The notes under the pieces: generated by a model
The model's input: the letters and a program-made list of their open reading frames with translations, nothing else
Told to the model about the DNA's origin: nothing
Database searches by the model: none
Position numbers and translations under genes: made by a program
Shown: positions 2,859 to 20,596 of the stretch, one piece after another
How the letters are laid out: the number at the start of each line of letters is the position of its first letter
Numbering within the stretch: the stretch's first letter is position 1
Assembly (NCBI RefSeq): GCF_025165815.1
Contig: NZ_JAFFZE010000004.1
Location: 558,001 to 622,000 of the forward strand
Direction: 5' to 3'
DNA length: 64,000 nt
Source: Actinophytocola gossypii
GTDB taxonomy: Bacteria; Actinomycetota; Actinomycetes; Mycobacteriales; Pseudonocardiaceae

Positions 2859-2927
2859 ATGAAGAAGTACGCCAAGCCGGCCGTCAGCAAGGTCTCGCAG
2901 GCCACGGTGCTCAAGGACAACACCTGA
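2859..2927 (+). CDS. 22-residue lasso-leader-like peptide without a core (candidate scaffold or precursor peptide)
   Basis: The peptide starts MKKYAKPAV and ends VLKDNT. It contains a YxxPx(V/L) signature (Tyr4, Pro7, Val9), which in lasso peptide leaders is the motif bound by the RRE (PqqD-like) protein. A Thr lies at the end, where a lasso leader would end. The stop codon comes right there, so no core follows. It has a near-perfect ribosome binding site and is followed by a hairpin at 2941-2963, then by an asparagine-synthetase-like gene with an RRE-like tail, and a stand-alone RRE is encoded at 10250. I infer it is either a carrier peptide whose C terminus or side chains are modified, or a very short RiPP precursor. 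No homologue is recalled, so the function is not established. Confidence 0.7.
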   Translation: MKKYAKPAVSKVSQATVLKDNT

Positions 2928-3044: not shown

Positions 3045-5222
3045 ATGTGCGGAAACGCGGGTCTCGCCCGAATCGACGGACAAGATCTCGGTCCTGACGC
3101 CGACGCGCTGCTCGCGCTGCTCGCCGACACCCTTCACCATCGCGGACCCGACGATCGGGAATGTCTGCGAACGGGACCGGTGGGGCTCGCCTTCACCCGG
3201 CTCTCGTTGGTGGACCCGGAGGACGGTAGCCAGCCATTGATCAGCGACGACGGCAATCTCGTCCTGATCGCCAACGGCGAGGTCTACAACCACCGGGAGC
3301 TCGCGGCACAACTGCCGGCCGGAACGCGCCTCAGGACCGGCTCCGACTGCGAGGTGCTGCTGTATCTCTACCGGCAGCACGGTCTGGACTTCCTACGGAA
3401 CGTCCGCGGCATGTTCGGTCTCATCCTCTGGGACCGCGCCCGGAACCAGCTGATCCTCGCCCGCGACAGGTTCGGCATCAAGCCGCTCTACTATCACCGG
3501 AACGACCAGCGAATCACGTTGTCCTCCGAGGTCAAGGGCCTGTTCGCCGACCCTGCGACCCCACGCTCCTTCGACTGGGAGCGATCCCTCTCGAACCCCT
3601 TCATGTCGGCCTCCGCCCGCTTCGGCGGCCCCGAGGTGGTCACGTGGTTCGAGGGTGTCGACAGCGTTCCCGCGGCCACGATCCTTCGAATCGATCTGAG
3701 CGACGGCCGTACCCACACTCATCGCTACTGGGAGATGCCCACCGAGGCCGAAGAGGGCGTCAGCGCTGAGGAGTTCATCCGTCGCTACGGCGACATCCTG
3801 GAACATTCGGTCCAGGAGTGCGCGACCGCGGACACCGAGCTCGGTCTGTTTCTGTCCGGCGGCATCGATTCCGCCGCCGTGCTGGCGCTGGCGGCGCCCC
3901 AGTTGACCGAGGTGCACACCTTCACGGCGCTGTCCGGCGGCACCCAGGTCAACGGTGACGCGGAGCATGCGAGCTGGCTGGCCCGGACGCTGGGCGTCCC
4001 CAACCACCAGGTGGTCTTCGATCGCGATCACGTTCCGACGCCCGAGGAATGGTGTCGACTCGTGTGGTTGGCGGAGACGCCGATGACTGGGCCCGAGATC
4101 TACTACAAGCACGAGTTGCACCGGTTCGCCCGAGCCGAGCGTCCGGATCTGCGCGGCATGTTGCTCGGTGCCGCCAGCGACGAGTTCAACGGCGGCTACT
4201 CCCCCAACATGAGCGGCAACAGCGACTGGCAGTCCTTTGTGGCCGCTCTGCGCCACATGGACCGCGCTACTCGTCTGGACCTCCATCCGGGACTGCGCAG
4301 CTGGTGGTCCGAGGGGCATGACTTCTTCTCCGACGAGGCCCTCACCCGTTTGGTCGGCGACACCACCACGGACGTGTATCGCGCGTACGTGGATTCCCAG
4401 TACGCGAAGGTCCAGCAGTACAACCTGTGGCACGAGGACCGCACCGCGGCGGGCAGTGGCATCGAGGCCCGGGTGCCTTTCCTCGACCACCGGCTCGTTG
4501 AGCTGACCGCGGTCATCCCGGCCCGAATGCGCCCACAACTGTTGTGGGACAAGCAGATCCTGCGCGAGGCGATGCGCGGCCGGTTGCCTGCCCGGATCGC
4601 GGACCGTCCCAAGGGGCCGTTCTTCTACGGATCGGGTACCTGGCACGCCTATCAGATGCTGATCCGGCTGTTGCGCAGGAACGACAGCGAACTCGTCGAT
4701 CGAGCCCTGTCCGCCCCCGGCGCCGACCTGTACCTCGACGGCGACGCGATCCGGCACCGGCTCGCCGAGTTCGGCGACGGTGTGACGGACGCTCCCGCCG
4801 TGGAAATGCTCATGCGTGTGGTCAACATGGGCCTGTTGGCCGAGATGACGGCAGCTCCACCGCGTCTCGCGGAGCTGTCCGCAGGGCCCGTTCGGGTCGG
4901 TCTTTCGGCGACGAGCGCGCACGGTGCCGACACGGAGAACGACCTGTTCAGCGCTGACCAGGACCACTCGTCGGACCGGGTGCTGGCGCTGTCCGACGAC
5001 GTCCAGCTCCTCACCGATGCCCAGGAGACGTGGTTCCTGCTCCACGCGGGTCAGATCGAGTACGTCCTGGAGCAGGACAGCCCCATCCTCCGCGTGTTGG
5101 TGCTCATCGACGGCACGACCCCCTTCGATGAAGTGCTCGCCAAGTCAGGAGTGCGTGCTGACGAGGTCCGGTCCGACCTCAACGACCTCTTCGGCGAACG
5201 ACTTCTGACCTTCAGCGGGTGA
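3045..5222 (+). CDS. Glutamine-dependent asparagine-synthetase-like enzyme with C-terminal PqqD/RRE-like domain
   Basis: The 725-residue protein begins MCGNAG, so processing exposes Cys2, the nucleophile of class II glutamine amidotransferases. The amidotransferase domain covers about residues 2-200. The AMP-forming synthetase domain (about 240-600) has the pyrophosphate loop SGGIDS at residues 271-276 and the AsnB-type sequence EARVPFLDHRLVEL. Beyond the usual end of AsnB, residues 640-725 (ALSDDVQLLTDAQETWF, then ILRVLVLIDGTTPFDEVL, then LFGERLLTF) look like a PqqD-type peptide-recognition domain. Inference: the enzyme binds the peptide encoded at 2859 and amidates or condenses a carboxylate on it. 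It differs from lasso cyclases in keeping a complete glutaminase domain. The stop is seven bases before the next start. Confidence 0.85.
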   Translation: MCGNAGLARIDGQDLGPDADALLALLADTLHHRGPDDRECLRTGPVGLAFTRLSLVDPEDGSQPLISDDGNLVLIANGEVYNHRELAAQLPAGTRLRTGSDCEVLLYLYRQHGLDFLRNVRGMFGLILWDRARNQLILARDRFGIKPLYYHRNDQRITLSSEVKGLFADPATPRSFDWERSLSNPFMSASARFGGPEVVTWFEGVDSVPAATILRIDLSDGRTHTHRYWEMPTEAEEGVSAEEFIRRYGDILEHSVQECATADTELGLFLSGGIDSAAVLALAAPQLTEVHTFTALSGGTQVNGDAEHASWLARTLGVPNHQVVFDRDHVPTPEEWCRLVWLAETPMTGPEIYYKHELHRFARAERPDLRGMLLGAASDEFNGGYSPNMSGNSDWQSFVAALRHMDRATRLDLHPGLRSWWSEGHDFFSDEALTRLVGDTTTDVYRAYVDSQYAKVQQYNLWHEDRTAAGSGIEARVPFLDHRLVELTAVIPARMRPQLLWDKQILREAMRGRLPARIADRPKGPFFYGSGTWHAYQMLIRLLRRNDSELVDRALSAPGADLYLDGDAIRHRLAEFGDGVTDAPAVEMLMRVVNMGLLAEMTAAPPRLAELSAGPVRVGLSATSAHGADTENDLFSADQDHSSDRVLALSDDVQLLTDAQETWFLLHAGQIEYVLEQDSPILRVLVLIDGTTPFDEVLAKSGVRADEVRSDLNDLFGERLLTFSG

Positions 5223-5229
5223 GGTGGAC

Positions 5230-6276
5230 ATGTACCAGCGGATGGCTCAGGAGCAGTTGCTGCGGGGTGACGCCTCGTCCCGGCCCGCGGTGACCGTGTA
5301 CGCCAGCCGATACGAGCGCTGGGAGGACCTGGCGAGCGTCCGGCGCAGGCCTCGACGGGACTTCGTCCCGGACGAGGAGACCTCGGACCTCTTTTTCCCC
5401 CCGGAGCTCTACCCGGTCGTGCTGCATCCGTTGGTCGCCGCGAAAGGCGAGGTGGTCGTCAAGGCACTGCTGCTGCATCGCCTGTACGACTACCTGGACT
5501 TCACCACCGAACTCGAGAACCTCGCGGTCATCCCCGTGGCCACCAAGATCAGCCGAGGCCGGTCCGGACTGGTCCTGCCCGCGCAGATGAAGGCCGACGC
5601 GTACAAGATCGTGACTGACGAGGCATGGCACGCACAGTTCTCACACGACTTCGTCCGCCAGATCGAGGCAAGCACCAACATCCCGCACCGCACCACTGAG
5701 GACGCCCCCGCTCCGTCGTTCCTGCTGCGGCTCGACGAACTGCGGGAGAAGTTGCCGCACGACATACGCGGCGTCGAGTCGCTGCTGTTCGCCATCGTCA
5801 GTGAGACGCTGATCTCCGGGATCCTGTCGGACATTCCCCGTGACGAACGGCTGCCCTTCAGCGTGCGCGAACTGGTGCGCGACCACGCCGTGGATGAAGG
5901 ACGGCATCACCAGTACTTTCGAACCGTCCTGAAACACCTCTGGCCCGCACTCAGCCCTCGCGAACGCCGAGCTGTCGGGCCGCACATCCCCTCCGTGGTC
6001 AACGCCTACCTCGAACCGGACTACGAACAGACCTTCCGGCACCTGCGAGGCATCGGTCTGACTGACGACGAGGCCGTCCAGGTCATCACCGAATCGTGGC
6101 CGCCGCACACGGTTCAGCACACCATCGCCGACGCCGCTCGCCCCGTCGTGCGCTACTTCGCCGAGGCAGGAGCGATCGACGACGACCGGACTCGGGAGTC
6201 CTTCGAGTGGGCGGGGTTGTGGGGTGCAGACTCCACCGGAGACCTCACGAGGACCGAAGGGATGGTGCTCCGGTGA
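5230..6276 (+). CDS. AurF-type diiron N-oxygenase
   Basis: This protein of about 348 residues keeps all seven iron ligands of the p-aminobenzoate N-oxygenase AurF at matching spacing: Glu96 (TELEN), Glu131 and His134 (DEAWH), Glu192 (SETL), and His219, Glu223 and His226 (DHAVDEGRH). AurF-family enzymes convert amines to hydroxylamines, nitroso or nitro groups. Here the substrate is probably a nitrogen installed by the preceding glutamine-dependent enzyme. The ATG at 5230 is preferred because GAGGTGG lies five bases before it; a GTG at 5224 is the alternative. The stop overlaps the next start (GTGA). Confidence 0.9.
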   Translation: MYQRMAQEQLLRGDASSRPAVTVYASRYERWEDLASVRRRPRRDFVPDEETSDLFFPPELYPVVLHPLVAAKGEVVVKALLLHRLYDYLDFTTELENLAVIPVATKISRGRSGLVLPAQMKADAYKIVTDEAWHAQFSHDFVRQIEASTNIPHRTTEDAPAPSFLLRLDELREKLPHDIRGVESLLFAIVSETLISGILSDIPRDERLPFSVRELVRDHAVDEGRHHQYFRTVLKHLWPALSPRERRAVGPHIPSVVNAYLEPDYEQTFRHLRGIGLTDDEAVQVITESWPPHTVQHTIADAARPVVRYFAEAGAIDDDRTRESFEWAGLWGADSTGDLTRTEGMVLR

Positions 6277-7556
6277 ACGGCCAGGACAAGGCTGGTGTCG
6301 ACGTGACGACCCCCACCGATCCAGCAGGCAGCACTCGCGATGCCGCTCCCCTGATGAGCCCGGCTGTGATCTTCCGCCGGTTCTGGCTCGCGACCACGGT
6401 GAGCGGTCTCGGGTCCGCGGTCACGCTGGTCGCGCTCCCGCTGGTCGCGCTGATCGTCCTCGACGCCTCCGTCATCGAGGTCACGCTGCTCACCGCGGCG
6501 GGCCACGTGGGGTGGCTGGTGCTCGGTCTCCCCGCCGGGGTGATCGTGCAGCGCTACCCGCTGCGTGGCCTGCAGGTCACCATGGATCTCGTCCGTTTCG
6601 CCGCGATCTGCTCGATACCGCTGGCCTGGTGGTTGGGTGTGCTCACCTACGCGCAGCTGCTGGTGGTGGCCCTGATCGTCGGTTTCGCGAGAGTCCTGTT
6701 CGACATCGGCAGTTTGACCTTCCTGCCGGCGATCGTCGAGAAGAAGGAACTCAACGCTCGTAACAGCCTCATCTCCGGGACACACGCGGTGAACCAGACG
6801 GGCGGCCCGTCGGTCGGCGCATTGATCGTCCAGGCCATGGGTCCGGTCGTCGCATTGCTTCTCGACGCCATCAGCTACCTGGTTTCTGCTCTCACCCTGC
6901 GTACCCTCCCGGAGCCCGGCGCCAGCGGGAACTCCCAGGTCAAGCCAGTCCAACTGATCAAGGAGGGCTGGACCTTCGTCGTCCGACACGCCGTGATGGG
7001 CCCCTGCCTGTGGTGGGCGACGGCGACGAACTTCTTCAGCACCGCCCTCATCGCGCTCACCCCGGTCTATCTGGTGCGCGCCGCCGAGACACCCCCCGCC
7101 ACCGTTGGTTTCGTCCTGGCCATGGACGGCCTCGGCGCCGTGATCGGTTCCGCCGTGGCGACACGGCTCGCCCGGCGGTTGGGCACCGCCCGCACGCTGA
7201 TCGTCGCGAGCGTGGCGGGCGGCCTGATCGCCCTGGTCATCCCCTTCACGACCAGCCTCGACACCATCTACTTCTTCATGATCGGCAACGCGGGGCTGTC
7301 CGCCGGTGTGGTGATCGGCAGCATCCTGACCCGGACCTACCGGCAGACGGAGAGCCCACCAGAGCTGCTGTCGCGGGTGATGGCTACCACGAGGTTCGTC
7401 TCCTGGGGAGCGATTCCCCTCGGAGCCGCGATCAGCGGCCTGGTCGCGGACTCGATCGGCCTGCACCCCGCTCTGTGGCTGGTGTGCGCGGGGACGCTGG
7501 TCGCACCTCTCATCCTGCTGCTCAGCCCGTTGCGTTCGCGCCGCGACTTCGGGTGA
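6273..7556 (+). CDS. MFS transporter (likely product exporter)
   Basis: A 427-residue protein with a polar N-terminal stretch of about 30 residues followed by roughly twelve hydrophobic segments. The sequence resembles actinobacterial MFS drug exporters (for example AGHVGWLVLGLPAGVIVQRYP at the loop after the second helix, and ARNSLISGTHAVNQTGGPSVGALIV). The GTG start overlaps the stop of the AurF-like gene. Longer in-frame starts upstream would overlap that gene by more than 100 bases and are not credible. Its place in the biosynthetic operon suggests self-resistance and export of the final product. Confidence 0.9.
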   Translation: MNGQDKAGVDVTTPTDPAGSTRDAAPLMSPAVIFRRFWLATTVSGLGSAVTLVALPLVALIVLDASVIEVTLLTAAGHVGWLVLGLPAGVIVQRYPLRGLQVTMDLVRFAAICSIPLAWWLGVLTYAQLLVVALIVGFARVLFDIGSLTFLPAIVEKKELNARNSLISGTHAVNQTGGPSVGALIVQAMGPVVALLLDAISYLVSALTLRTLPEPGASGNSQVKPVQLIKEGWTFVVRHAVMGPCLWWATATNFFSTALIALTPVYLVRAAETPPATVGFVLAMDGLGAVIGSAVATRLARRLGTARTLIVASVAGGLIALVIPFTTSLDTIYFFMIGNAGLSAGVVIGSILTRTYRQTESPPELLSRVMATTRFVSWGAIPLGAAISGLVADSIGLHPALWLVCAGTLVAPLILLLSPLRSRRDFG

Positions 7557-7692
7557 GCCGGCGCGTCGCGCTCGGTCGTCATCGAACACGGTGATGCGGG
7601 TCATCGAGAACGTTGCGCGGCACCGCGTTGCCCAGGCGCTCCCCCGTCGATGACGATGGGTGCACCATCCCGCGGTCGCAGGGCAGGGGAAC

Positions 7693-8766
7693 ATGGGCAC
7701 TGATGGACGCACGGTCAGCGCTGTCGACGACTCCGCCGAGGTGACATCGCCCGCGATGACGACCATGCTCGCGACCATCGGCCCCGCGACTCGCGCACCT
7801 GAGACCATGGCTGCCCTGATCCGCCTCGGCGTCAGCGGGTTCCGGTTCTCCGCCTCGAAGTTCGGCGTGGTCGAGCTCGCGGCCCAGGCGGCGGACGCCC
7901 GCGCGGCGGGTCGTGCCGTCGGCCGGCCCGTGGAGCTGCTTCTCGACCTGCCCGGCGCCAAGGTCCGGTTCACGAACCCGGAATCGCTCGACCTCGGCGC
8001 CACGCCACGGTTCAGGATCTCCTACGCACGACAGCTCACCCGCCACGGCCAGGACATGCCAGAACTCGGTGTGTCCGATCCGGAGCTGGGCGCCGGCATT
8101 GCTCCCGGCGACCTCCTGCTCATCGGCGACGGCGAGATCGCTGCCCGTGTGGTGTCGGCATCCAGGACCCACTGTGTGGCCGAGTCGCTCGACGGTGGGG
8201 TGCTCGGCCCGCGCAAGGGTGTCTGGGTGATGGGAAAGTCACGACGACTCCGGCCACCCGACCCGGAGGCGGACCTCGCCCTGCTCGAGAAGTTGAGCGA
8301 CTCGGCCTTCACCGGGGCGTTGGTCTCGTTCGCCGAGGATGCGGCCGTGCTGGACCCGGTCCGCGCGCGGTGGGGCGGGCGAAGCGCCAACGCCGTCGTG
8401 GCGAAGGTGGAGACCCGGGCAGGCGTGGCCAACATCGCCGAGATCGCGCGGGCGGCGGACAGCGTGCTGGTTGGCCGTGGTGACCTGCTCATGGACAGCG
8501 GGGTGCTCGACTTCCACGACCTGTGCACGACCGCTGTGCGGGAATGCAGGCGATTGTCCGTGCCGGTCGTGGTGGGCACCCAGCTGCTGTCCGGTCTGGA
8601 GCACTCGTGGCTGCCGCTTCGTTCCGAGCTCGCCTATCTGTGCGGCGTGCTCGAGTCGGGTGTCGACGGGCTGTTGCTCACGACCGAGACCACCTTCGGC
8701 AGCGATCCGCTTCGTGCGGCGGGCTTGATGGCAGAGCTGATTCGGCGCTACGGCGTCCGCGAGTAG
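7693..8766 (+). CDS. Shortened pyruvate-kinase-like protein, copy 1
   Basis: The 357-residue protein has the catalytic (beta/alpha)8 barrel of pyruvate kinase but lacks the C-terminal regulatory domain (typical enzymes are about 470-500 residues). Retained: ATIGPAT at the start; Lys90 in DLPGAKVRF; Lys238 and Glu240 in AKVET; Asp264 in GRGD; Thr296 in GTQLL; and RSELA and TTET near the end. The RxNxSH motif of true enzymes is altered to FRFSASK, with Arg and one Ser kept. Inference: a phosphoryl-transfer enzyme with a changed acceptor. It is a paralogue of the protein at 12760-13818. ATG 7693 is chosen for the GGGG just before it; ATG 7660 is possible. It converges with the minus-strand operon, with a gap of ten bases. 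Confidence 0.85.
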   Translation: MGTDGRTVSAVDDSAEVTSPAMTTMLATIGPATRAPETMAALIRLGVSGFRFSASKFGVVELAAQAADARAAGRAVGRPVELLLDLPGAKVRFTNPESLDLGATPRFRISYARQLTRHGQDMPELGVSDPELGAGIAPGDLLLIGDGEIAARVVSASRTHCVAESLDGGVLGPRKGVWVMGKSRRLRPPDPEADLALLEKLSDSAFTGALVSFAEDAAVLDPVRARWGGRSANAVVAKVETRAGVANIAEIARAADSVLVGRGDLLMDSGVLDFHDLCTTAVRECRRLSVPVVVGTQLLSGLEHSWLPLRSELAYLCGVLESGVDGLLLTTETTFGSDPLRAAGLMAELIRRYGVRE

Positions 8767-9338: not shown

Positions 9339-10253
9339 TCAGAACCCCAGTCGCTGTAGGAGGGCGGCGCCGCCTTGGTCGAGTTGGTAGAATACCCGCC
9401 CGCCGAGCCGTTGCTTCCACACCAGGCCGGAGGCGGCCAGGACGGTCAGGTGCTGTGACACCGTGCTCTTGGCCATTCCCAACGAAGCCGCCACAGCTGT
9501 GGTCGTCTGCGGAATCTTCAACGCGCGCACCACCTGTGCTCGCCCGCTGCCGAGCAGAAGCGCCAGGCGATCCTCCGTGGGGGCGGCACGGTCGGTCGCC
9601 GTCAGGACCTGGAAGAAGCCGGTGGCCCGAGCCTGGTACGAGACAGCCACCACGCCCGGCTCCCGCAGGAACAGCCGCACGCCGCCCGCGAACACGGTCG
9701 GCACCAGCAACAGTTGCGAGCTGGTCACCGACACCTCGAGATCGCAGTGGAACGGTGCGGTCAGGAAGGGCCGGGACCACAGCACCCGTCCGTCCAACTC
9801 GTTCAGCATCGCCTCCGGCCCGGACACGACGAGGGTCCGGCCCCGGAAAAGAACCTCCTCTTCCAACGAGGTCCGCATCTGGACCCAGTGAGGGGCGATC
9901 GCCCAGTCCCAGTACTGCTCGAGGAGTCCGCAAAGCCGGTCGGCGGAGTTGCCTTCGCACCGGACCCGCATTTCCATGAGCTCGGGCTCGAGCGTGCTGC
10001 ACGCGGCGCTGGGCAGCGGCACGGAACCTTGTGGGAACAGTGACAGGTTGGCGCGCCGCATCGGCTCCACCAGGCCTTCCACAAGGTGGCGAGGCAGTTC
10101 GCGGCGAACCGCACGGGCCCAGCGGGAGTAGGGCGACGGCGCCTCGCCCGGATAGCGGGCGAGGATCGCCAGGCTGCCGATGGTTTCCCACAGCGGGCTG
10201 AGCGCGAGCCGCACTCGGCCGAGGCTGTCGTCATCCACCCGCAGCCGGATCAC
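9339..10253 (-). CDS. ArsR-like transcriptional regulator with long N-terminal domain
   Basis: The 304-residue protein has a winged helix-turn-helix at its C terminus (IPQTTTAVAASLGMAKSTVSQHLTVLAASGLV, then the wing RLGGRVFYQLDQGGAALL). The preceding 220 residues form the sensor domain found in actinobacterial ArsR-type regulators of the DUF5937 kind. The start is a GTG that overlaps the stop of the RRE gene (GTGA); an ATG at 10277 would overlap it by 28 bases. Position inside the operon suggests a local, possibly autoregulatory, controller. The ligand is unknown, and no metal-binding cysteine pair of the classical ArsR type is seen. Confidence 0.85.
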   Translation of the reverse strand: MIRLRVDDDSLGRVRLALSPLWETIGSLAILARYPGEAPSPYSRWARAVRRELPRHLVEGLVEPMRRANLSLFPQGSVPLPSAACSTLEPELMEMRVRCEGNSADRLCGLLEQYWDWAIAPHWVQMRTSLEEEVLFRGRTLVVSGPEAMLNELDGRVLWSRPFLTAPFHCDLEVSVTSSQLLLVPTVFAGGVRLFLREPGVVAVSYQARATGFFQVLTATDRAAPTEDRLALLLGSGRAQVVRALKIPQTTTAVAASLGMAKSTVSQHLTVLAASGLVWKQRLGGRVFYQLDQGGAALLQRLGF

Positions 10254-10537
10254 CGCAAGGGCTCCTCGACCACCCATTCGACGACACCGCGACCAGCGAG
10301 GTCGTCGAGAAAATCACTCACGTCGGCGCTGACCTCCGCGGGGTCGGCGTCGTACCTGGCGACGACGATGGCGACGATGTCCGCGACGCGGTTCCGCCCG
10401 TCCGCCGACTCGTAGATCAGCTTCGCCACGTCGGTCAGTTCCAACGCGTCCGCGTCGACGCCGATGACCAGGTCGCCGGAGACCCGGCGGACCCGGACGC
10501 CGAGGGCCCGGCGCGGCACGCGAAGGCCGGTGCTCAT
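10250..10537 (-). CDS. Stand-alone PqqD-like RiPP recognition element
   Basis: A 95-residue protein with the PqqD/RRE pattern: an N-terminal beta hairpin (VRVRRVSGDLVIGVD), a helix with LTDVAKLIYESADGRNRVADI, then IVVARYDADPAEVSADVSDFLDDLAGRGVVEW. Such proteins bind leader peptides through their YxxPx motif and present them to partner enzymes. It overlaps the nucleotidyltransferase upstream (ATGA) and the ArsR-like gene downstream (GTGA). Its likely ligand is the 22-residue peptide encoded at 2859, in which case the whole minus-strand operon acts on a peptide-bound substrate. The binding partner is inference; the family call is strong. Confidence 0.88.
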   Translation of the reverse strand: MSTGLRVPRRALGVRVRRVSGDLVIGVDADALELTDVAKLIYESADGRNRVADIVAIVVARYDADPAEVSADVSDFLDDLAGRGVVEWVVEEPLR

Positions 10538-11352
10538 GTGGTCTCCACACGGATGGCGATGTCCTGGCAGATGGTGAGCACGGATCGGACCCACGGTCGC
10601 GGATCGGCCGGGTCGTAGTCCCGCATGGTCTCCAGCGCCCAGTAACGCTCGAACGAAAGCACCTCGGGAGCAGCCGCTTTGAACCGGTTGGGTCGCCACT
10701 TGGGCATGTGGCTGCCGTACTCGCCCGCGCTCTCCAACAGTGAGTCGACGGCGTGGCCGAGTGCCCGGCGAGCCGACAACACCGCGCTTTCCAGATGCCC
10801 GGCCTCCAGTTGGCCCAAGGCGTCTTCCGCGGCGTCATCGGCCAGGCCGAGCGACCGGACCACGACGATGGAGCGGAAGGCGGACTGGTTCAGCAGTTCG
10901 CATCTGGCCTCGATCCACTCGCTGCCCAGCAACGGCCGGCAGTGGACGAGGCGGGCCAGGGAGGTCTCCTCGCGTGGCGAGAGGATCTCGCCGGCGAAGA
11001 CCTCACCTGTGTACCTGTCCCAGCTGATCTTGGCGAGCATCTGGTCGAACTGGCGCTCCAGCCAGTAGGTGATCTCCCAACGACGGCCGTTCTCGAAGAA
11101 CACCTCGTTCCGCACCCGTGGCGGGTCGAGCGGCATCAGGGCGGCGTTGTAGCTCTCTGTCCGCACCTCCTCGGTGGTGACGACGTAGATGTCGAAGTCA
11201 CTGCGGGAGTTCTCCCAGCCACGCGCGACCGAGCCGACGACGAAGGCGGCGATCGTGTCGTCAGGGAGCAGGTCGCGCTCTCGGAGCGGGTTGAGCCAGT
11301 CGGCGGTGTCCTGCTCCGGCGTGGGCACCGCCATGAAGGTCCGCTCGCTCAT
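10534..11352 (-). CDS. Nucleotidyltransferase-domain protein (Pol-beta superfamily)
   Basis: A 272-residue protein. Residues 38-58 carry the nucleotidyltransferase signature: Gly40-Ser41 followed by SDFDIYVV with catalytic acids Asp52 and Asp54. The helical C-terminal half (about 140-250, with QLEAGHLESAVLSARRALGH) resembles the HEPN-like domain of aminoglycoside or kanamycin-type nucleotidyltransferases. It could adenylylate a hydroxyl or phosphate as a tailoring, activation or resistance step. Nucleotidyltransferases also occur beside some lasso peptide clusters. It overlaps its neighbours by four bases on both sides, so it is co-translated with the RRE. Confidence 0.85.
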   Translation of the reverse strand: MSERTFMAVPTPEQDTADWLNPLRERDLLPDDTIAAFVVGSVARGWENSRSDFDIYVVTTEEVRTESYNAALMPLDPPRVRNEVFFENGRRWEITYWLERQFDQMLAKISWDRYTGEVFAGEILSPREETSLARLVHCRPLLGSEWIEARCELLNQSAFRSIVVVRSLGLADDAAEDALGQLEAGHLESAVLSARRALGHAVDSLLESAGEYGSHMPKWRPNRFKAAAPEVLSFERYWALETMRDYDPADPRPWVRSVLTICQDIAIRVETT

Positions 11353-11999
11353 GTGCGGCTCACCAACGACATGCCGTCGGCGACGGGGAGCATGACGACC
11401 TCGACTCGGGAGTCCTTGACCAGCCGCTTGTTGAACTCGATGACCGCGTGGTCGGCCTCCTTGACCGGCTTCAGCACCCGGCCGCTGCGGAAGACGTTGT
11501 CGAAGGCGACGATTCCGCCCGGTCGGGTCCGCACGATCAGTTCCTCGAAGTACTCCAGGTACCCCTCCTTGTCGGCGTCGACGAAGGAGAAGTCCAGGTG
11601 CGGCTCGGCCGGCAGCGCGCGCAGCGTCTCGATCGCGGGCGCTATGCGCAGATCGATGCGGTCCACGACGCCGGCCGCCTGCCACGCTTCACGAGCGATC
11701 GGTGTCCAGTCGTCGGTGATGTCGCAGGCGATCAGGCGGCCGCCGGGCCGCAGACCGCGGGCGATCGCGAGGGAGGACATCCCCGTGAAGCTGCCCACGT
11801 CGACGGCGTGACGTGCGCCGAGGGTCCGGGCCAGCAGAGTGAGCAGAGCACTCTGCTCGGGTGCTGTCTGCCAGTGCGCCACCCGAGGAAGGGTCGAGGT
11901 CTGCTCGATGATCCGGCGCTGCACGGCATCGAGCGGAACGCTGTGCGCGAGCATGTACTCGCGCAGCGGGGCTGGTATGAGGAGTGTGCTGTCCTTCAT
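11349..11999 (-). CDS. Class I SAM-dependent O-methyltransferase (caffeoyl-CoA type)
   Basis: The 216-residue protein matches the Methyltransf_3 family in size and motifs: motif I VDVGSFTGMSSLAIA (residues 67-81), the acidic ACDITDDW, and the divalent-metal region FVDADKEGYLEYFEEL followed by RPGGIVAFDNVF. Members methylate catechol-type hydroxyls, often on acyl carriers or small molecules. It lies in the middle of the overlapped minus operon (ATGA at both ends), which marks it as a tailoring enzyme of this pathway. The acceptor may be a hydroxyl made by the flavin monooxygenase at 25113 or a hydroxylamine made by the AurF-like enzyme. Confidence 0.9.
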   Translation of the reverse strand: MKDSTLLIPAPLREYMLAHSVPLDAVQRRIIEQTSTLPRVAHWQTAPEQSALLTLLARTLGARHAVDVGSFTGMSSLAIARGLRPGGRLIACDITDDWTPIAREAWQAAGVVDRIDLRIAPAIETLRALPAEPHLDFSFVDADKEGYLEYFEELIVRTRPGGIVAFDNVFRSGRVLKPVKEADHAVIEFNKRLVKDSRVEVVMLPVADGMSLVSRT

Positions 12000-12763
12000 G
12001 AGGCCGTGGCCTTTCGAACGGTCGGGTGGGTGAGGATGCGGCCGGAGGTGGTGGCGTCCCCGGCGGTCCGGCCGGCGTTGTCGAAGAGCTCGAGCACGTG
12101 CTCGGCGAGTTCAGGCGCCGTGGAGCGGTCCGAACGCACCACTGTCCACTCGGGATCGCCGGCGATCAGCCGGGTGGTCAGCTCGTCGAGTCGCACGATC
12201 TCGTCCAGGTGTCGACGCAGGAAGTCGTTGACAGCGTGCTTGGCGGGTCCTTCGCGGGCCGCCATCCGTTCTCGCCGGGCCGCGGGAGCACAGGTCAGGT
12301 AGATCTGCACGGCGAAGCGGGGAACACGGGCACGGATCCACTCGGGTGCCAGGTAGCACTCACCAGGGGTCAGAAAGGTGTTGAACGAGTGCTGTGTCAG
12401 CCAGTACCGGTCCTGCACCCTGACCGCACCTGGTTCGGGCGGTCTCTGCTGAGCGGCCAGTTCGGCGTCCACGATGAGCTGTGCGGAACGCACGCTGTTG
12501 AAGCGGCGCCACAGCCCCAGGTCACGGAAGGGTCGGTCCGTGGCATCGTCGAAGACCGCCACCGCTTCGCCGAGCATCGCGTCCACGAGTCCGCCCTTGG
12601 TCAGCGTGCCGTGTGACTGCGTGACCTCGTGGCCCCGTGCGCGCAACTCGGCCGCGATCAGCCGCGCGAGGCTGGTCTTGCCGCTGCACTCGTGTCCGTC
12701 CAGGAGGATGCCGGGGATGAAGGGACGTTGGACGGTGGTCCCTCGACCTGGGTCGGGTTTCAT
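11996..12763 (-). CDS. Thymidylate-kinase-like P-loop kinase
   Basis: A 255-residue P-loop protein with Walker A GHECSGKTSLA at residues 23-33 and a LID-like region ACAPAARRERMAAREGPAKH. The sequence VRVQDRYWLTQHSF resembles the DR(Y/W) motif of dNMP kinases. It is clearly not the housekeeping thymidylate kinase given its cluster position and divergence. It likely phosphorylates a pathway intermediate, or the monophosphate produced by another kinase in the same operon (APH-like gene at 13829). Both ends overlap neighbouring genes by four bases. Confidence 0.8.
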   Translation of the reverse strand: MKPDPGRGTTVQRPFIPGILLDGHECSGKTSLARLIAAELRARGHEVTQSHGTLTKGGLVDAMLGEAVAVFDDATDRPFRDLGLWRRFNSVRSAQLIVDAELAAQQRPPEPGAVRVQDRYWLTQHSFNTFLTPGECYLAPEWIRARVPRFAVQIYLTCAPAARRERMAAREGPAKHAVNDFLRRHLDEIVRLDELTTRLIAGDPEWTVVRSDRSTAPELAEHVLELFDNAGRTAGDATTSGRILTHPTVRKATAS

Positions 12764-13818
12764 GGGCGGCTCGGGAAGAGTGCGGTTCTGACGGTCGTGG
12801 GTGCGTATCGGTCCCGAAGTCCGGTGAGGAGTGTCACCGCCCGAACCGGGTCGGTGGCCCCCGCCGTCTCTTCGGAGAGCATCAGCCCGGCCACCCCCTC
12901 AGCCAGCAACCCGCTGACGGTGGCGAGCTCCGATCGGTGCGGCAGCCACCCGGCCGCGAGGCTGGTCAACAGCTGGGTACCGACGAGCACAGGGCATCCG
13001 ATCGCGCGCGCCGCGTCCAGCACCCGGCGGCAGGCCGCGTGGAACTCGACCGGGCCGGTGTCGAGCAACAGGTCGCCGCGTCCGAGCAGGATCCCGTCGG
13101 CGGCCCGGGCGACCTCGTCCGCCGACGCCGCTCCGGTCGCTGTCTCGACCTTCGCGACCACCGAGGGCAGTGGACCCTCGCGGACACCCTCGCTCAGCAC
13201 CGCGCGGGCACGGTCGACGAGATCGGCCGACTCGGCGAAGGAGATCACCACAGCGTCGAACGGTGTACCGGCCATTGCCCGCAACCCGGCGAGGTCGTAG
13301 GGGGTGAACTCCTGTGCGCCCCCGGCGTCGCGGGCACCGGGGAAGGAGAGCCCTCGCCGGATCCCGATCACGCCGGTGGTCAGCGGTACCGCCCTGCACG
13401 AACCCGCGGCGTGTTCCACGATCCGCAACGCGTCCTCCCCGTCGCCGATGACGACGAGGTCGCCGACCGATGGACGCGGGTCGCCGGGACCGAGGCCGGA
13501 CACCCCGAGCCGCGGCACCGGACCGGTGAGATCGGAAGGGCCGGCGTCGAAGCGCAGCACGAGCTCGGTGACGCCGGCCAGGTCCAGGTAGGCGTCGTTG
13601 GTCAGTCGCGGTTTGGCGCCGGGGAGGTCGAGCACCAACTCGACCGGCAGACCAAGATCCGCGGCGAGCTCACGAACCACTTCGGCGAGGGCCGCGAGCT
13701 GGGCCACGGGGGTCTTGGATGCCGTGAAGCGGAACACATCCACCCCGGCTTTCAGCAGGTCACCGAGGACCTCCCTGGAGGAGCAGGCCGGTCCGACCGT
13801 GGCGACGACGTGGGTCAT
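12760..13818 (-). CDS. Shortened pyruvate-kinase-like protein, copy 2
   Basis: A 352-residue paralogue of the protein at 7693-8766. Both have the barrel and lack the regulatory C-terminal domain. Motifs run in the same order: THVVATVGPACSS, VDVFRFTASK, VLDLPGAKPRLT, VVIGDGEDALRIV, AKVETATGAASADE, LLGRGDLLLDTGPVEFH, LVGTQLLTSL and LPHRSELATVSGLL. Conservation of the lysine, acidic and threonine residues used for PEP chemistry suggests active enzymes. The ATG at 13818 leaves a ten-base gap to the upstream gene; an ATG at 13842 would overlap it by 14 bases. The presence of two copies in opposite operons of one cluster suggests two related phosphoryl-transfer steps or a heteromer. Confidence 0.85.
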   Translation of the reverse strand: MTHVVATVGPACSSREVLGDLLKAGVDVFRFTASKTPVAQLAALAEVVRELAADLGLPVELVLDLPGAKPRLTNDAYLDLAGVTELVLRFDAGPSDLTGPVPRLGVSGLGPGDPRPSVGDLVVIGDGEDALRIVEHAAGSCRAVPLTTGVIGIRRGLSFPGARDAGGAQEFTPYDLAGLRAMAGTPFDAVVISFAESADLVDRARAVLSEGVREGPLPSVVAKVETATGAASADEVARAADGILLGRGDLLLDTGPVEFHAACRRVLDAARAIGCPVLVGTQLLTSLAAGWLPHRSELATVSGLLAEGVAGLMLSEETAGATDPVRAVTLLTGLRDRYAPTTVRTALFPSRP

Positions 13819-13828
13819 GCCGGCCCGC

Positions 13829-14827
13829 TCAGGCCCACGCACCGAGCAGCCCGAGCGTCTCGGCGGCTCGGGTGGCCGGGCCCGCGTCGAGGCGAGCCAG
13901 CCCCGCGTGCGTGAAGGACAGGCTCAGGCGGAAGACGAGCCAACCCACTTCCTCATGCTCGCGCCTGGTGAAGTCGAAGGGATCTCCGAGCATCTCGGAC
14001 GTCCACGTACCCAGTCGGTCGTACAGGTGGGGCGGCACCAGGGACAGCGCGCTCAGGCCGTAGCGCAGCAACACCAGGCAGGCCATCAGCTCCAACCGGG
14101 CGGCCTCGCTCGCATCGACGGGGCGGTCGAAGTAGGCCTCCAGGAACTTCTCGAGCAGCGCGCCCTCGATGCCGAGCGAGAGCATCGCGTTGGCCAGGTC
14201 GTACAGCGGGTCCCCGAAGCCGAGGTGGTCGAAATCGATGAGCCAGGCGCGCATGCCGTCGAACAGGACGTTGCCGCGGTTCAGGTCGTGGTGGCAGAGC
14301 CGGTCCTCGACCCCGAGCCGGCCGAGCGCCGCTCGCAGGCCGTCGAACCGTTCGGACGCCTCGCTGTAGATCGCGAGCTCGGGAATCCGGGGGGCGAGTC
14401 GCGCCACCCCGGACCGCGCGGCGTCTATCTTGCCCTCGTGCAGCCGCGGGTCACCGTCCATGTCGAGGGTGTGCAGCTCACGCAGGACCCGAGCGAGTGA
14501 GAGAGCCTGCCACTGGGCGATCGGTCGGGTGGCGGGAGCGCCCAGGATCTCGTCCATGACCAGCACGCCGCTCACGGGATCGGCGTACTCCACCCTCGGG
14601 CCGACCCCGTGCTTGCCGAGCAACTGGGCTGCCCTGAACTCCGTTGGTACGACGCCTTCTTCAGCGAACCGCAGGTCGATCACACGTGCGACCCGACGGG
14701 TACCGTCAACAGCGATGGAATAGGTCGATGCCCATGGCGTGGGGGTGGCCGGGAAGGCGCTCACCGTCGCCCTGTCGCTCAGCCCGAGGATCTCCAGAAC
14801 ACCCGCAAGCCGATCATCAGCACACAT
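13829..14827 (-). CDS. APH/choline-kinase-family phosphotransferase
   Basis: The 332-residue protein has the bilobed aminoglycoside-phosphotransferase fold: catalytic loop LCHHDLNRGNVLFDG (HxDxxxxN), and IDFDHLGFGDPLYDLANAM as the magnesium-binding DFD-type motif. It is the first gene of the minus-strand operon. The ATG at 14827 (MCADDRLAG) is preferred because the longer frame to 14992 runs into the divergent promoter region with no domain content. The role may be resistance by phosphorylation or a biosynthetic kinase feeding the thymidylate-kinase-like and pyruvate-kinase-like proteins downstream. The substrate is unknown. Confidence 0.87.
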   Translation of the reverse strand: MCADDRLAGVLEILGLSDRATVSAFPATPTPWASTYSIAVDGTRRVARVIDLRFAEEGVVPTEFRAAQLLGKHGVGPRVEYADPVSGVLVMDEILGAPATRPIAQWQALSLARVLRELHTLDMDGDPRLHEGKIDAARSGVARLAPRIPELAIYSEASERFDGLRAALGRLGVEDRLCHHDLNRGNVLFDGMRAWLIDFDHLGFGDPLYDLANAMLSLGIEGALLEKFLEAYFDRPVDASEAARLELMACLVLLRYGLSALSLVPPHLYDRLGTWTSEMLGDPFDFTRREHEEVGWLVFRLSLSFTHAGLARLDAGPATRAAETLGLLGAWA

Positions 14828-15044
14828 GGATGACCTCTTTCCGATCAGCGTCCGTGCAGCATCAAACAGCGCGCTCCCCTTCGTCAAGGCACCGATCACC
14901 GTATCCGATAAGGGCATTCGTGAACTTCGATGCTGAATCCGGCCAAGCGTCGCTATGGTAATCATGGAGGTTGTCGGTTCGCATCGCGGCACATTCGACG
15001 GTTGCGGGCCCGGTCAAGTGGCCCTGTCGTGAGGGTTATCAATC
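14828..15044. promoter_or_regulatory. Divergent promoter region between minus-strand operon and PKS operon
   Basis: This 217-base gap drives both the eight-gene minus operon and the PKS operon, so it is the likely control point for the LysR (27593) and ArsR-like (9339) regulators. GTGAGGG at about 15030 serves as ribosome binding site for the PKS start. I could not assign -35/-10 boxes or an operator with confidence. Confidence 0.55.
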
Positions 15045-18000
15045 ATGCGCGAAGATGTTGCCATCATCGGTGTTGCCTGCCGATATCCTGGCGCCGCGCA
15101 TGCCCACGCGTTCTGGGACGACCTCGCGAACAAACGGTCCGGGATCAGAGAAGTCGGTCCGGACAACTGGAGTTCGGACACGTTCTATTCGCCGGACGGC
15201 GTTGAGTCCGGGCAGGTGAACACGAAATGGATCGGCGGCCTCAGTGACTCGCGCAACTTTGATCACGCGTTCTTCAACATCTCGCCACGTGAGGCGGTCG
15301 CGCTGGATCCGCAGCACAGGATCCTCCTCGAGGAGGCATGGCACTGCCTCGAGGATTCCGGCCTGCCGATCGACCTGCTCCGCCGGTCACGGACGTCGGT
15401 GAACATCGCCCTGTCGGTGCACGACTACCTGCTCAGGGCCACCGCCAACAACAAGCGGGTCGACGTGTTCGACCCGGTCGGCAACTACCACTGCATGTCG
15501 GCCAACCGTATTTCGTACTTCCTGGATCTGCGCGGCCCCAGTCGCGCGGTGGACACTGCCTGCTCGTCCTCACTGGTGGCGTTGAGCCACGGCCGACAGG
15601 ACCTGCTGCACGAGGACTGTGATTTCGCCGTCGTCGGCGGCGTGAACCTGATCTCCTCGCCATGGCGCTATCTGGCATTCACGCAGTCCCGCATGCTCAG
15701 CCCTGACGGCCGCTGCTTCACCTTCGATTCCCGGGCGAACGGATACGTGCCTGGTGAGGGCGCCGGCGTGGTACTGCTGACCAGGCTGTCGAACGCCGAG
15801 CAGCTCGGCTGTCACGTGTACGGCGTGCTCAAGGGCATCGCCACCAACCATAACGGGCACAATCGAACCGTCACCGCGCCCAGCGTTTCGGCACAGGTCG
15901 ATGTCATTTCCCGTGCGCTGGCCGACGCTCAGGTGGACCCGGCCCAGGTGAGCTATGTGGAGGCGCACGGGACCGGCACCAGCCTGGGTGATCCGATCGA
16001 GATCGAGGCCCTCGACATCGCCTACGCCCGGCGGGAACGGGCATCGGCGCTGACGGTCGGCTCGGTCAAGACCAACATCGGTCACGTCGAGGCGGGCGCG
16101 GGCATGGCCGGCCTGATCAAGGTCCTGCTCATGCTCCGGAACAGGACCATCGCACCCACCCTGAACGTCGAGCGGGTCAACCCGCTCATCGAGCACACCG
16201 CGGAGCGAATCGAGTTCCCCGGCGACGCCGCGCCGTGGTCGAGCGAGGGGCCGCGAACGGCGGGCATCAGCTCGTTCGGGTTCGGTGGCGTCAACTGCCA
16301 CGCCATCGTGTCGGAACACCAGCCGCGTGAGCGTCGGCCGGACCCGGTGCGAGGCGGAGTGTCCGACGGCGGTGTCCCGCCGGTGTTCACCCTCGCGGCG
16401 AAGACTCGTACCGCACTCGAGCGTTCGCTCGGTGAATGGTCCCACCACGTGCGTTCCGCGCGGCCGGAGACGTTGGCCGGCCTTTGCCGGGCCACGAACC
16501 AGCGAGATCTGACGCTGCCGTACCGGTTCGCCGCGCGCGCCGGCGATCTCGTCGTCGCGCTCACCCGCGTGGAAGGCGAGATCCGACACAGCCAAAGGTC
16601 CCCGGAACTCGCGATCCTCCTGACAGCCGACCCCGTGGAGTCGATCCGCGACCCGGGCGTCGCAGCGCACCGGTCGATCGTTCTCGCCGAAGCCGTCGCG
16701 GACCCGGCGAATCCAGCTCTTGACCCGTTCGCCACACGATTGGCCGTACTGCGTGCCTTGGCCGAACGCGCTGTGCACGGGGCCGAGTTGGTCGCACACT
16801 GCGGCGATGGTGCCGCCGCTGTCATGGTGCATTCCGGGATGATGTCCGTCGCCGACGCCGCCGAGGCACTGGCCGCCGACGGCCCTCTCGTCGTGACGGC
16901 GTCGCCAACCGTCGCGGTGCACATCGGTGCGCGGTCGTTCCTGCCCAACGAGATAACGGCGGAGTACTTGGCGGAACTCGCCAACAACTGTGCCCGATCG
17001 GTAGCCGTGGTCGCGGCATACGCGGCACACGCCGCCGGTCTTCTCGGGCACCAGCACACCTTCGTTCGGGAACTCGGCGCGTGGGCGAACCCGACGCGCG
17101 CCCACGGCCTCTTCCTGACCGAGGCTGTTCACGACTTCGCCGAGATCGCGGACTCGTTGAGACCCGAGCACCGCGCGATGACGGCCCTCGCGATCGACGC
17201 GGCCCACACGGAGATCGACCACGCCTGGGGTTTGACAGCTGCCGGATGGCGCGACCCGGCCACCCACGAACTGGCGAACCTCGTCCGCAGGAACATCGTG
17301 TCGCCCACGACGGCATTGCACATGCTCGCCGGGTCAGCCGATCTGGCAGCGGTCGCCGCGCAGGCGCGCGAACATCGCGATGTCCGCTCCTCGGTGCTGA
17401 CAGACGTGCCGCTGCTGCGGCGGCACACGGCCGAGCAGCACCGTGGTCTTCGCATTCCCGCCACACGGGCCGAGGCGGTGCGGGATCTCCCGCAGGATGT
17501 TCGAGCGGATTGCCTGGCCGTCGTCGGAGCATTCGGCAGCACGGATCCCAGGGTTCGCTCGGTGCGGATCGACCCATCGACAGCGGATGCGTTCGCCACC
17601 TGCCTGATCGAACTCTGGCTTACCGGCTGCGACATCGACTGGGCGGGCGCGCAAACCGGTGTCGAGCACATCCCAGGACTACCCGGTTACTCCTTCGATC
17701 CGCACGAGCACTGGCACGAGGACGAGGTGTTCAGATTCGACGGCCGTGAACCTGCCACGCCCTCCGTGCCGGAGGGACGGTCGGCGAATGCTCGACGTCA
17801 CGACGGGTACGAGGCGAGTGACCGGCCAGCGGAAGCGGCCCAGTCCGTCTCCGCGACCATGCCGGACGACGACCTGGCAGCGGAACTGCGACAGCTTCTG
17901 CGCCAGTTGGTGGCGCAGAGCACCAAGAACCAGCTCTCCACGGTAGGTACGGACACCGAGTTCGCGGATCTCGGCATCGATTCGCTGATCATCCACTCGC

Positions 18001-19541: not shown

Positions 19542-20596
19542 GCACCGGTCATCCATCGAGTCCTGCCGCTCGCTTCGTCCTGACCATCTCGGCGGGCAGC
19601 GCTGAATCCCTCACTGCCTACGTGCGGGGGCTGTCCACCTTCCTCTCCGGCGATCCGCGGCCCGGGCGACACCCGTTCCCCCACACGGTGACCCTGCCAG
19701 GTGTGGCCGCGACGCTGTTGAACTTCCGGCGGTGCGCGCCGCACCGGCTGGCACTGAGCGCGGCCACCCTGGCTGAGGCGGCCGACAAGCTCATCTCCTT
19801 CACCGAGCACACGTCGAATCCGCACTCGACCGCACCACACGGCCTGTACGCGAACGTCATCCACCGGAGCACTTTCGACGAGGACGCCGTCGCGAGCCAG
19901 GACCGGGACTACCTGCTGGCGCTTGCCGCGAGCGGACGCCATGAGCAGCTCGCGAAGCTGTGGTCCGTCGGGTTCCCGGTCGACTGGCGGCACGTCTATC
20001 CCGAACTGGTCGCCGAACGTCCGGTCTATCTACCACCGGTGCCGTTGGACCGACGTCGATACTGGCCGCACGCACCCGAGGCCGCATCCGCGACAACCAC
20101 GAGAGCGGCCGCGCCGCCAGATGCCGACGATCGACGTCGCCCAGGGAACAAGTCCTCGCAACTCGTGGCCGAGCTGACGAACCTGCCGACCGCTCTTCGC
20201 GAGCGCCGGCTCTGCGACTATCTGCAGGATCGCATCGCCGTGCTGCTCGACTATCCGGACGGAGAGCGTCCGCACACCGACCGCGGGTTCTTCGACCTCG
20301 GCATGTCGTCCATCCACCTGGGGCAGGTGCGGCAGTCCATCATCGCCGACACCGCGTTCGAACCAAGCGACACGTCGGCGTTCGAGCATCCGACCATCGC
20401 CGAGTTCGCCGCCTATCTGGCGCGCGAGCTGGCGGCCCACAGCGAATCCGAGATCGCACCATCGGATTCCGTGGTGCACGGGCCCGACGCGACGGAGCCT
20501 GCTCAGGCTCTCCTGCCGCACACCCTCGGCGAGGACGACATCGACCGGCTTTCCGCCCACGACCTGGAACGCGCACTCATCGAGGTGGTTTCGTGA
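19538..20596 (+). CDS. PKS fragment: KS-AT linker, post-AT linker and ACP (second half of a split module)
   Basis: This 352-residue protein starts with the region that normally follows a KS (LTISAGSAESLTAYVRGLSTFL). It reaches a post-AT linker (LAKLWSVGFPVDWRHVYPE, then PLDRRRYWP) without any AT core, and ends with an ACP containing GFFDLGMSSIHL, where Ser257 is the expected phosphopantetheine site. It therefore completes the KS2 module that begins on the upstream protein, showing deletion of the AT between two preserved linkers. The overlap with both neighbours (ATGA, GTGA) supports stoichiometric co-translation. Confidence 0.85.
   Translation: MSTGHPSSPAARFVLTISAGSAESLTAYVRGLSTFLSGDPRPGRHPFPHTVTLPGVAATLLNFRRCAPHRLALSAATLAEAADKLISFTEHTSNPHSTAPHGLYANVIHRSTFDEDAVASQDRDYLLALAASGRHEQLAKLWSVGFPVDWRHVYPELVAERPVYLPPVPLDRRRYWPHAPEAASATTTRAAAPPDADDRRRPGNKSSQLVAELTNLPTALRERRLCDYLQDRIAVLLDYPDGERPHTDRGFFDLGMSSIHLGQVRQSIIADTAFEPSDTSAFEHPTIAEFAAYLARELAAHSESEIAPSDSVVHGPDATEPAQALLPHTLGEDDIDRLSAHDLERALIEVVS

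Follow-up and report, generated by a model that had tools for sequence, protein, structure and literature searches.

A conserved 22-residue peptide without a core and an apparently undescribed RiPP-like or scaffold cassette in actinobacteria

Organization of the Actinophytocola gossypii locus

The window analysed here is a 64,000-nucleotide stretch of the Actinophytocola gossypii genome (contig NZ_JAFFZE010000004.1, positions 558,001 to 622,000), in which a 22-codon ORF (2859–2927, + strand; ATG at 2859, TGA at 2925–2927) encodes the 22-residue product MKKYAKPAVSKVSQATVLKDNT; from its translation and comparison with homologues we regard this as a candidate precursor or scaffold peptide without a core. 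The Shine-Dalgarno sequence AAGGAGGTG (2844–2852, + strand) lies 6 nt before the ATG, in agreement with the near-perfect ribosome binding site of the original prediction, and the upstream stretch is loosely similar to a ribosome binding site in 43 of 44 homologues, the exception (L024) having just 9 nt upstream. The YxxPx signature that had also been predicted is formed by Y4 and P7 and is kept across the homologues; these match the RRE-binding motif of lasso leaders, [Y/W]xxPx[L/V/I/F/A] (PMC13381572), and 23 of 26 sequences have A or V at position 9.

Downstream of the ORF is a gene (3045–5222, + strand) coding for a 725-residue glutamine-dependent asparagine-synthetase-like amide synthetase (AS; Pfam Asn_synthase, 4e-55). 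Against the TIGR01536 asparagine synthase model it scores 313 bits, above the cut-off of 267, and it falls far below the lasso cyclase models NF033535 (176 of 525 bits) and NF033561 (73 of 300). The glutaminase residues are intact in a 42-sequence comparison, with R52, N77, G78, E79 and D101 in all 42 and C2 in 41 (one gap), which bears out the predicted use of glutamine and points to ammonia rather than an external amine as the nitrogen source. The next gene (5224–6276, + strand) codes for an AurF-type diiron N-oxygenase (PF11583, 4e-26; AurF structures, 3e-7), in which E98, E133, H136, E194, H221, E225 and H228 are present in all 37 sequences compared; we take these seven to be the AurF diiron ligands. 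It is followed by an MFS exporter gene (6273–7556, + strand; MFS_3, 2e-30) with an inferred GTG start at 6273 that overlaps the AurF stop, and by the first of two copies of a short pyruvate-kinase-barrel protein (7660–8766, + strand; PF00224, 9e-35).

The remaining genes are transcribed leftwards, in the order APH-type kinase (13829–14992, − strand; PF01636, 7e-20), the second short pyruvate-kinase-barrel copy (12760–13842, − strand; TIGR01064, 2e-43 and below cut-off; PF00224, 111 bits), a P-loop small-molecule or nucleotide kinase-like protein (11996–12763, − strand; AAA_18, 1.8e-5, and Thymidylate_kin, 0.037, both below cut-off), an O-methyltransferase (11349–11999, − strand; PF01596, 3e-45), a kanamycin-nucleotidyltransferase-fold protein (NT; 10534–11352, − strand; NTP_transf_2, 1.3e-4), a PqqD-family RRE (10250–10537, − strand; PF05402, 7e-12) that shares its first 4 nt with the end of NT, and an ArsR-type regulator (9339–10277, − strand), which is present in part of the cassettes (its BLAST cluster occurs in 16 loci). 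The start-to-stop overlaps along this series are 14, 4, 4, 4, 4 and 28 nt, as expected for one translationally coupled operon, and three kinase-like genes are thus in one overlapping operon with NT and PqqD. Adjoining this operon, and together spanning 15045–26762, are type I PKS genes, whose examined ORFs encode KS and ACP domains, and after them a FAD monooxygenase gene. The original prediction had picked out AS and the RRE domains, and the AurF-type gene, the NT–PqqD pair and the kinases were missing from it.

Both of the RRE-type domains that had been proposed are supported, the PqqD protein by Pfam (its comparison with solved structures gives PqqC/D at 5e-8 and TbiB1 at 0.11) and the AS C terminus (4980–5216, + strand) by modelling. 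There is no Pfam PqqD match in this AS tail, and an AlphaFold model built from 40 sequences predicts an RRE-like fold with beta-strands at 49–78 and then three helices at 83–120, with pLDDT >90 over most of 49–120. The top Foldseek matches are TigE, GdmN, MibB, a ribosomal-protein hydroxylase, TruD/LynD-type heterocyclases and MccB, with weak E values (0.02–0.5, none below 0.001) and non-RiPP proteins in the list. Of these, we take MibB, the TruD/LynD-type heterocyclases and MccB, with E values of 0.04–0.5, to be RRE-bearing RiPP enzymes; GdmN and the ribosomal-protein hydroxylase are non-RiPP enzymes. Two general features of RiPP systems are therefore present, namely a ribosomally encoded precursor adjoining candidate modifying enzymes, at the level of gene neighbourhood, and an RRE in the modifying machinery (PqqD by Pfam, the AS tail by model).

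The peptide is conserved in sequence and in length

A scan of GTDB species genomes with AS gave 57 loci, of which 41 are actinobacterial and contain close AS relatives (41–92% identity of the best segment). These relatives are near full length except in L054, where a protein of 731 aa is encoded and residues 1–570 are matched. The other 16 loci contain distant AsnB proteins (L059–L061, L063, L064 and L067–L077; 27–36% identity), and three of these 16 are actinobacterial. By looking for YxxP ORFs upstream of AS and by scanning whole loci with a profile we identified a homologous short ORF in 40 of the 41 close-AS loci, the exception being L058, in which AS, AurF and NT are encoded and no peptide was found. 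It is also present in all four of a further set of loci (three plasmids and one genome). The original prediction named as evidence against it homologous loci lacking a conserved short ORF, or homologues with a longer peptide carrying a normal core; since 40 of 41 loci carry the ORF and no longer core was seen, neither objection holds.

We tallied peptide features in 44 loci, leaving out L032 (an extended N terminus with the same end), L058 (no peptide), and L084 and L086, which are the same loci as L022 and L050 respectively. The peptide is exactly 22 residues long in 43 of the 44 (that of L062 has 20), and Y4, K6 and P7 are each present in 43. No longer core is present in any of the 44. In contrast to this fixed length, the last residue varies, with 14 A, 7 V, 6 R, 5 T, 4 S, 3 K, 2 P and one each of I, H and G at position 22. 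The earlier proposal that the peptide ends where a core would begin thus holds for its length; because the last residues vary, the final one to five could conceivably form a minimal core at the C terminus.

In most loci the peptide ends ~70–130 nt upstream of AS, and there are departures from this arrangement. L034 and L047 each have three peptide copies, and L053 has two with divergent tails. In L050, L051 and L053 the peptide is upstream of genes other than AS, and in L065 a divergent copy is on the opposite strand downstream of AS.

The peptide profile was trained on 26 sequences, which it then re-found; among the loci outside the training sample are L021, L026, L028, L033, L037, L040, L045, L046, L048, L050, L051, L053, L065, L078–L080 and L085. 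Its scores stayed below 8 throughout 1.28 Mb of reversed sequence, below 10 in the 16 distant AsnB loci and below 12 in another 12 AurF loci (2.7–3.9 kb), and these nulls exclude a chance ORF. A peptide-first search of 394 genomes of the class yielded three matches: the window (8.8e-10), an AS-carrying genome (3.4e-10) that appears to be that of L050 and so is not independent, and a weak match (3.5e-4) without the cassette. At the codon level, third positions are no more variable than first positions (33 loci) and nonsynonymous changes exceed synonymous ones in eight of 12 close pairs, so the codon support for purifying selection is weak and the case for the peptide is carried by the protein-level pattern and the fixed length. 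On these sequence comparisons, the ORF at 2859–2927 is a real gene. We note that the gene table for the three plasmid regions with the peptide, which is known to be incomplete, lists no such ORF.

Cassette partners

Among 42 loci (the window and 41 others, counting genes within the fetched flanks), AS, AurF, NT and PqqD are all present in 33. Partial sets are AS, AurF and NT (two loci), AS, NT and PqqD (two), AS and AurF (two), AS and NT (one, on a 3.5-kb contig), and AS alone (two). There is no AurF within the flanks of L042 and L062, no PqqD in those of L023 and L058, and no further cassette gene within 10 kb in L030 and L057. When ten genomes were searched with the NT alignment, NT was identified in nine; in L030, L049 and L057 it is ~12–18 kb from AS, apparently on the same contig as judged by coordinate, and none was found in the L065 genome. 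AurF relatives also occur without the cassette nearby.

The closest association is between NT and PqqD, which are adjacent and on one strand in 34 of the 35 loci with both, and in the sole exception (L066) a second NT gene is next to that for PqqD. Other pairs of cassette genes are adjacent far less often (6–12 loci per pair). This arrangement suggests that PqqD presents a peptide to NT as its substrate. The NT model (mean pLDDT 90) has ANT(4'') (1.1e-6) and kanamycin NTase (3e-6) as its closest solved structures, and G40, S41 and E128 are invariant in 34 sequences with D52 and D54 nearly so; in the alignment the L036 protein has N at both metal aspartate positions, and may therefore be inactive. 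The MFS exporter BLAST cluster is represented in 25 loci, and with a loose threshold an MFS or ABC match is present somewhere in 35 of 42.

Two variants of the AurF-type proteins were seen. In L065 there appears, by eye, to be a fused short RRE-like helical stretch, although Pfam recognises just AurF in this fusion and no RRE-like stretch. Proteins in L036 (18787–19812), L037 (7422–8489), L043 (13394–14497) and L044 (16622–17731) are extended at the N terminus by MCGxxGxFxGC, a sequence similar to that with which a glutaminase domain begins, and more Cys residues come after it.

Kinase-like genes near the cassette

Whole-genome searches with Pfam kinase families covered 37 locus genomes, with matches checked by translation (L027, L040 and L045 were left out, and L049 and L054 share one genome); the PF00224 search also took in the window's own genome. 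Nucleotide-kinase-like genes are near the cassette in 29 of 38 genomes; this count is raised by common descent and by the tendency of biosynthetic genes to cluster, and the link is therefore an association and not proof. An earlier count seeded from the loci themselves, with kinase genes in 16 of 46 cassette loci and in none of 20 stretches of the window's own genome, was rejected as biased, the seeds having come from cassette loci.

With full-length enzymes (≥380 bits) and fragments or weak partial matches (G776, G756 and G757) set aside, PF00224 identified 12 divergent short pyruvate-kinase-barrel genes, two in each of six genomes (the window, L021, L022, L047, L055 and L056). Among the 38 genomes searched these divergent genes are confined to these six, which have the cassette, and all 12 are less than 18 kb from AS by coordinate. 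Seven of the ten outside the window are inside loci and translate without stops, and the other three (two in L047 and one in L055) rest on contig numbering. PF02223, for which some genomes had more initial candidates than the number scored, gave at least 65 matches outside its main high-scoring group, and in at least 16 genomes one of these is inside the locus, against a chance expectation of ~0.2 (22-kb zone, genomes of ~9 Mb); the 16 in-locus genes translate with a P-loop. For PF00334, eight of 28 divergent matches, in six genomes, are inside loci. Three thymidylate-kinase matches (the second in L025, L042 and the second in L039) and four NDK matches (L052 C55, L039, L044 and, by eye, L030) were dropped as coincidences of coordinate. 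In L050 a PfkB kinase (1.6e-37) is beside a P-loop protein with a weak Thymidylate_kin match (0.0024, below cut-off).

Surroundings of the cassette

The neighbourhoods of the cassette are varied, and include PKS genes, LanM or PEP-mutase family members and an amidinotransferase. An annotated lanM gene is beside the cassette on a plasmid (L080, 12554–15427), and DUF4135 proteins are encoded in L026 (6521–9406), L030 (6470–9673) and L041 (13330–16536), with LANC_like over cut-off in L026 and L041; L034 has a protein of the same BLAST cluster. Eight loci (L023, L035, L037, L038, L040, L043, L045 and L048) have in common a HAD hydrolase and proteins of 227 aa and 380 aa, the latter two without a Pfam match. 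In L028 (2044–4869) a thymidylate-kinase-like gene is followed by a PanC gene (pantoate-beta-alanine ligase family) and a class III-type aminotransferase gene, a run that suggests a cluster-specific small molecule next to the cassette. In L044 and L085 a CAAX-protease-like membrane protein (PF02517) is encoded between AS and the NT or PqqD gene. Streptomyces griseofuscus DSM 40191 (L029) is among the strains with the cassette. The cassette is also on large linear Streptomyces plasmids (L078, L079 and L080), and it may move, since transposase genes are near it in all three of these regions and a tyrosine recombinase gene in one.

Relationship to known systems and alternative explanations

The peptide shares with actinobacterial lasso systems its YxxPx leader motif, the PqqD-type RRE and an AsnB-family enzyme, and a Thr at position 16, present in 16 of 26 sequences, is reminiscent of the conserved Thr that is next to last in lasso leaders (PMC10368454). 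These likenesses could be explained by a cryptic lasso-type RiPP with a very short core (approximately the last five residues) and AS as its cyclase. However, AS falls well below the lasso cyclase cut-offs while passing asparagine synthase and retains an intact glutaminase, the peptide has no conserved Asp or Glu as ring acceptor, and PF13471, the B2 transglutaminase-like leader peptidase family, gave 26 matches in 17 of 38 genomes of which none could be placed within 20 kb of the cassette. We reject a lasso peptide proper, in which a core with a ring-forming Asp/Glu and a loop is expected, and consider the short-core version very unlikely. Still more improbable is that the ORF is a regulatory leader acting by attenuation or ribosome stalling ahead of AS. 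The short distance to AS in most loci would suit such a role, but the RRE-binding motif is conserved as protein, and we reject attenuation given the triplicated ORFs (L034 and L047) and the placements upstream of other genes or on the other strand downstream of AS.

The alternative closest to the original prediction is a PEARL-like carrier, in which AS couples an external amine or hydroxylamine to the C terminus, and the group is matured and cut off and the peptide reused. As in the PEARL systems (TglA, TmoA and AmmA), the peptide is coreless, and its length is fixed; the assembly of pearlins takes place at the carrier C terminus and tmo encodes an RRE protein (PMC9303977), and the varied surroundings of the cassette are in keeping with this. 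The systems differ in that AS, AurF and NT are here in place of the LanB-type gene, with no dedicated protease identified. PF04738 (LanB) is present in 20 of the 38 genomes, and by contig number, contig match or translation none of its matches could be put less than 20 kb from the cassette; two are ~23.5 kb away by coordinate (L034 and L044), where the contig match to the cassette is uncertain. The earlier statement that the window has no LanB-type ligase is thus supported across the 38 genomes for this 20-kb range, and a PEARL system in the strict sense is rejected. Moreover, the intact glutaminase points to ammonia and not to an external amine, a carrier should have a constant loading end yet residue 22 varies, and no protease recurs among the neighbour clusters inspected (PF13471 being the one protease family searched directly). 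We regard a PEARL-like carrier as unlikely overall, while giving it serious weight. A different role for the same enzymes is as a hydroxylamine-donor module of the trichostatin type, with AurF and AS supplying N-OH to a polyketide or other product and the peptide just a docking site or carrier. TsnB7 (AurF-like) hydroxylates the amide of glutamine with its helper TsnB6, and TsnB9 (AsnB-like) passes the hydroxylamine on (PMC5719088; PMC13418202); the pairing of an AurF-like with an AsnB-like enzyme, as in TsnB7/TsnB9, ActI/ActJ (actinonin) and MatA/MatC (matlystatin) (PMC5719088), and the hydroxamate chemistry are common to these systems (PMC5719088; PMC13418202), the two enzymes are encoded together in the cassette, and there is a PKS in the window cluster. 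In those known systems, however, the substrates described are the free amino acid glutamine, acids or CoA esters, the parts of these accounts available to us mention no peptide, NT or PqqD whereas here PqqD is tied to NT, and several loci have by eye no evident shared acceptor pathway, making this explanation distinctly improbable.

A proposed pathway at the peptide C terminus

Our preferred explanation is that the ORF encodes the substrate or scaffold peptide of an undescribed RiPP-like cassette that acts on the C-terminal carboxylate, a reading that we consider a real possibility while stopping just short of calling it probable. From the peptide and cassette described above we infer the chemistry as follows. 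As there is no internal core, the carboxylate at residue 22 is the constant feature of the peptide, and the fixed length, the RRE-like domain on AS and the variable last residue together point to this carboxylate as the target. Both the RRE-like AS tail and the PqqD partner of NT would bind the N-terminal YxKP segment. AS would convert the carboxylate to a carboxamide with nitrogen from glutamine, the AurF-type enzyme would N-hydroxylate the amide to a hydroxamate, and NT would place a nucleotidyl group, or one resembling it, on the resulting N-OH or else on the amide. The simplest chain would therefore be acid, amide, hydroxamate and then nucleotidyl transfer to N-OH, in a presumed order; with the amide as alternative acceptor a phosphoramidate would result, as in microcin C. 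The accessory kinases probably shape the NT substrate, the exporter would secrete the product, and the peptide would be trimmed by some protease. Counting against this C-terminal pathway is that AS would have to tolerate many C termini, given the variable residue 22. That variability fits poorly with a carrier that is reused and is less of a problem if the conjugate is retained; a retained peptide conjugate of the microcin C kind fits as well as a released small molecule.

Several known systems resemble parts of this scheme. The asparagine-synthetase-like TsrC and ScdTA amidate RiPP C termini, and PesC (nitrilobacillins) makes a C-terminal nitrile, so that AS-like enzymes acting on a precursor C terminus have precedents; PesC has MNIO and HExxH oxygenases as partners, with no AurF or NT mentioned in the part of the account available (PMC13060819). 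Microcin C also has a short precursor of fixed length (MccA), which bears a C-terminal nucleotide through a phosphoramidate linkage (PMC6495379). It differs in using MccB where AS and NT are present here, and nucleotide attachment in the cassette is putative. No ThiF family member turned up in the general Pfam scans of cassette-locus proteins; MccB is a ThiF-like enzyme that adenylates its precursor at the C terminus.

An extension of the proposed pathway, which we offer as a rather unlikely but specific possibility, is that the cassette makes peptide–nucleotide conjugates by a route unrelated to that of microcin C, with NT joining the 22-mer hydroxamate to the monophosphate of a cluster-specific molecule X. 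In this extension X would be raised to an NTP-like triphosphate by serial kinases, in the order APH-like, P-loop or thymidylate-kinase-like, and then NDK- or pyruvate-kinase-like. N–P nucleotides from Streptomyces are known, including the hydroxylamine-bearing EM2487 and 1100-50 (PMC6429109), and K-563 is a further Streptomyces compound of the phosphoramidate nucleotide kind (PMC6434342); nothing in the available parts of these two papers ties such compounds to the cassette. The L044 and L085 peptides end in Pro. Phosmidosine contains Pro, and we know of no link between it and the cassette.

Implications

The original idea stands in part, and what it pointed to is a real, widespread and apparently undescribed RiPP or scaffold cassette. 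Among the matches listed in the open-access literature, a scope with subscription papers mostly outside it, there is no description of the cassette or of an AurF-type enzyme in a RiPP cluster. It would add a RiPP or scaffold class whose enzyme set was not found described, recognisable by a 22-codon ORF that is short enough to escape routine annotation, and would offer new chemistry in the proposed C-terminal peptide hydroxamates and their nucleotidylation. If the conjugate extension is true, conjugates that differ in X and in the residue at the C terminus (A, V, R, T, S, K or P, among others) would form a family of aminoacyl-adenylate mimics and could be Trojan-horse inhibitors of different tRNA synthetases, and such a cassette might make orphan Streptomyces nucleotides of the phosphoramidate or hydroxylamine type, like phosmidosine or EM2487/K-563. 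The cassette is found in several actinobacterial genera and on some plasmids, and provides a genome-mining handle to clusters with products yet to be found.
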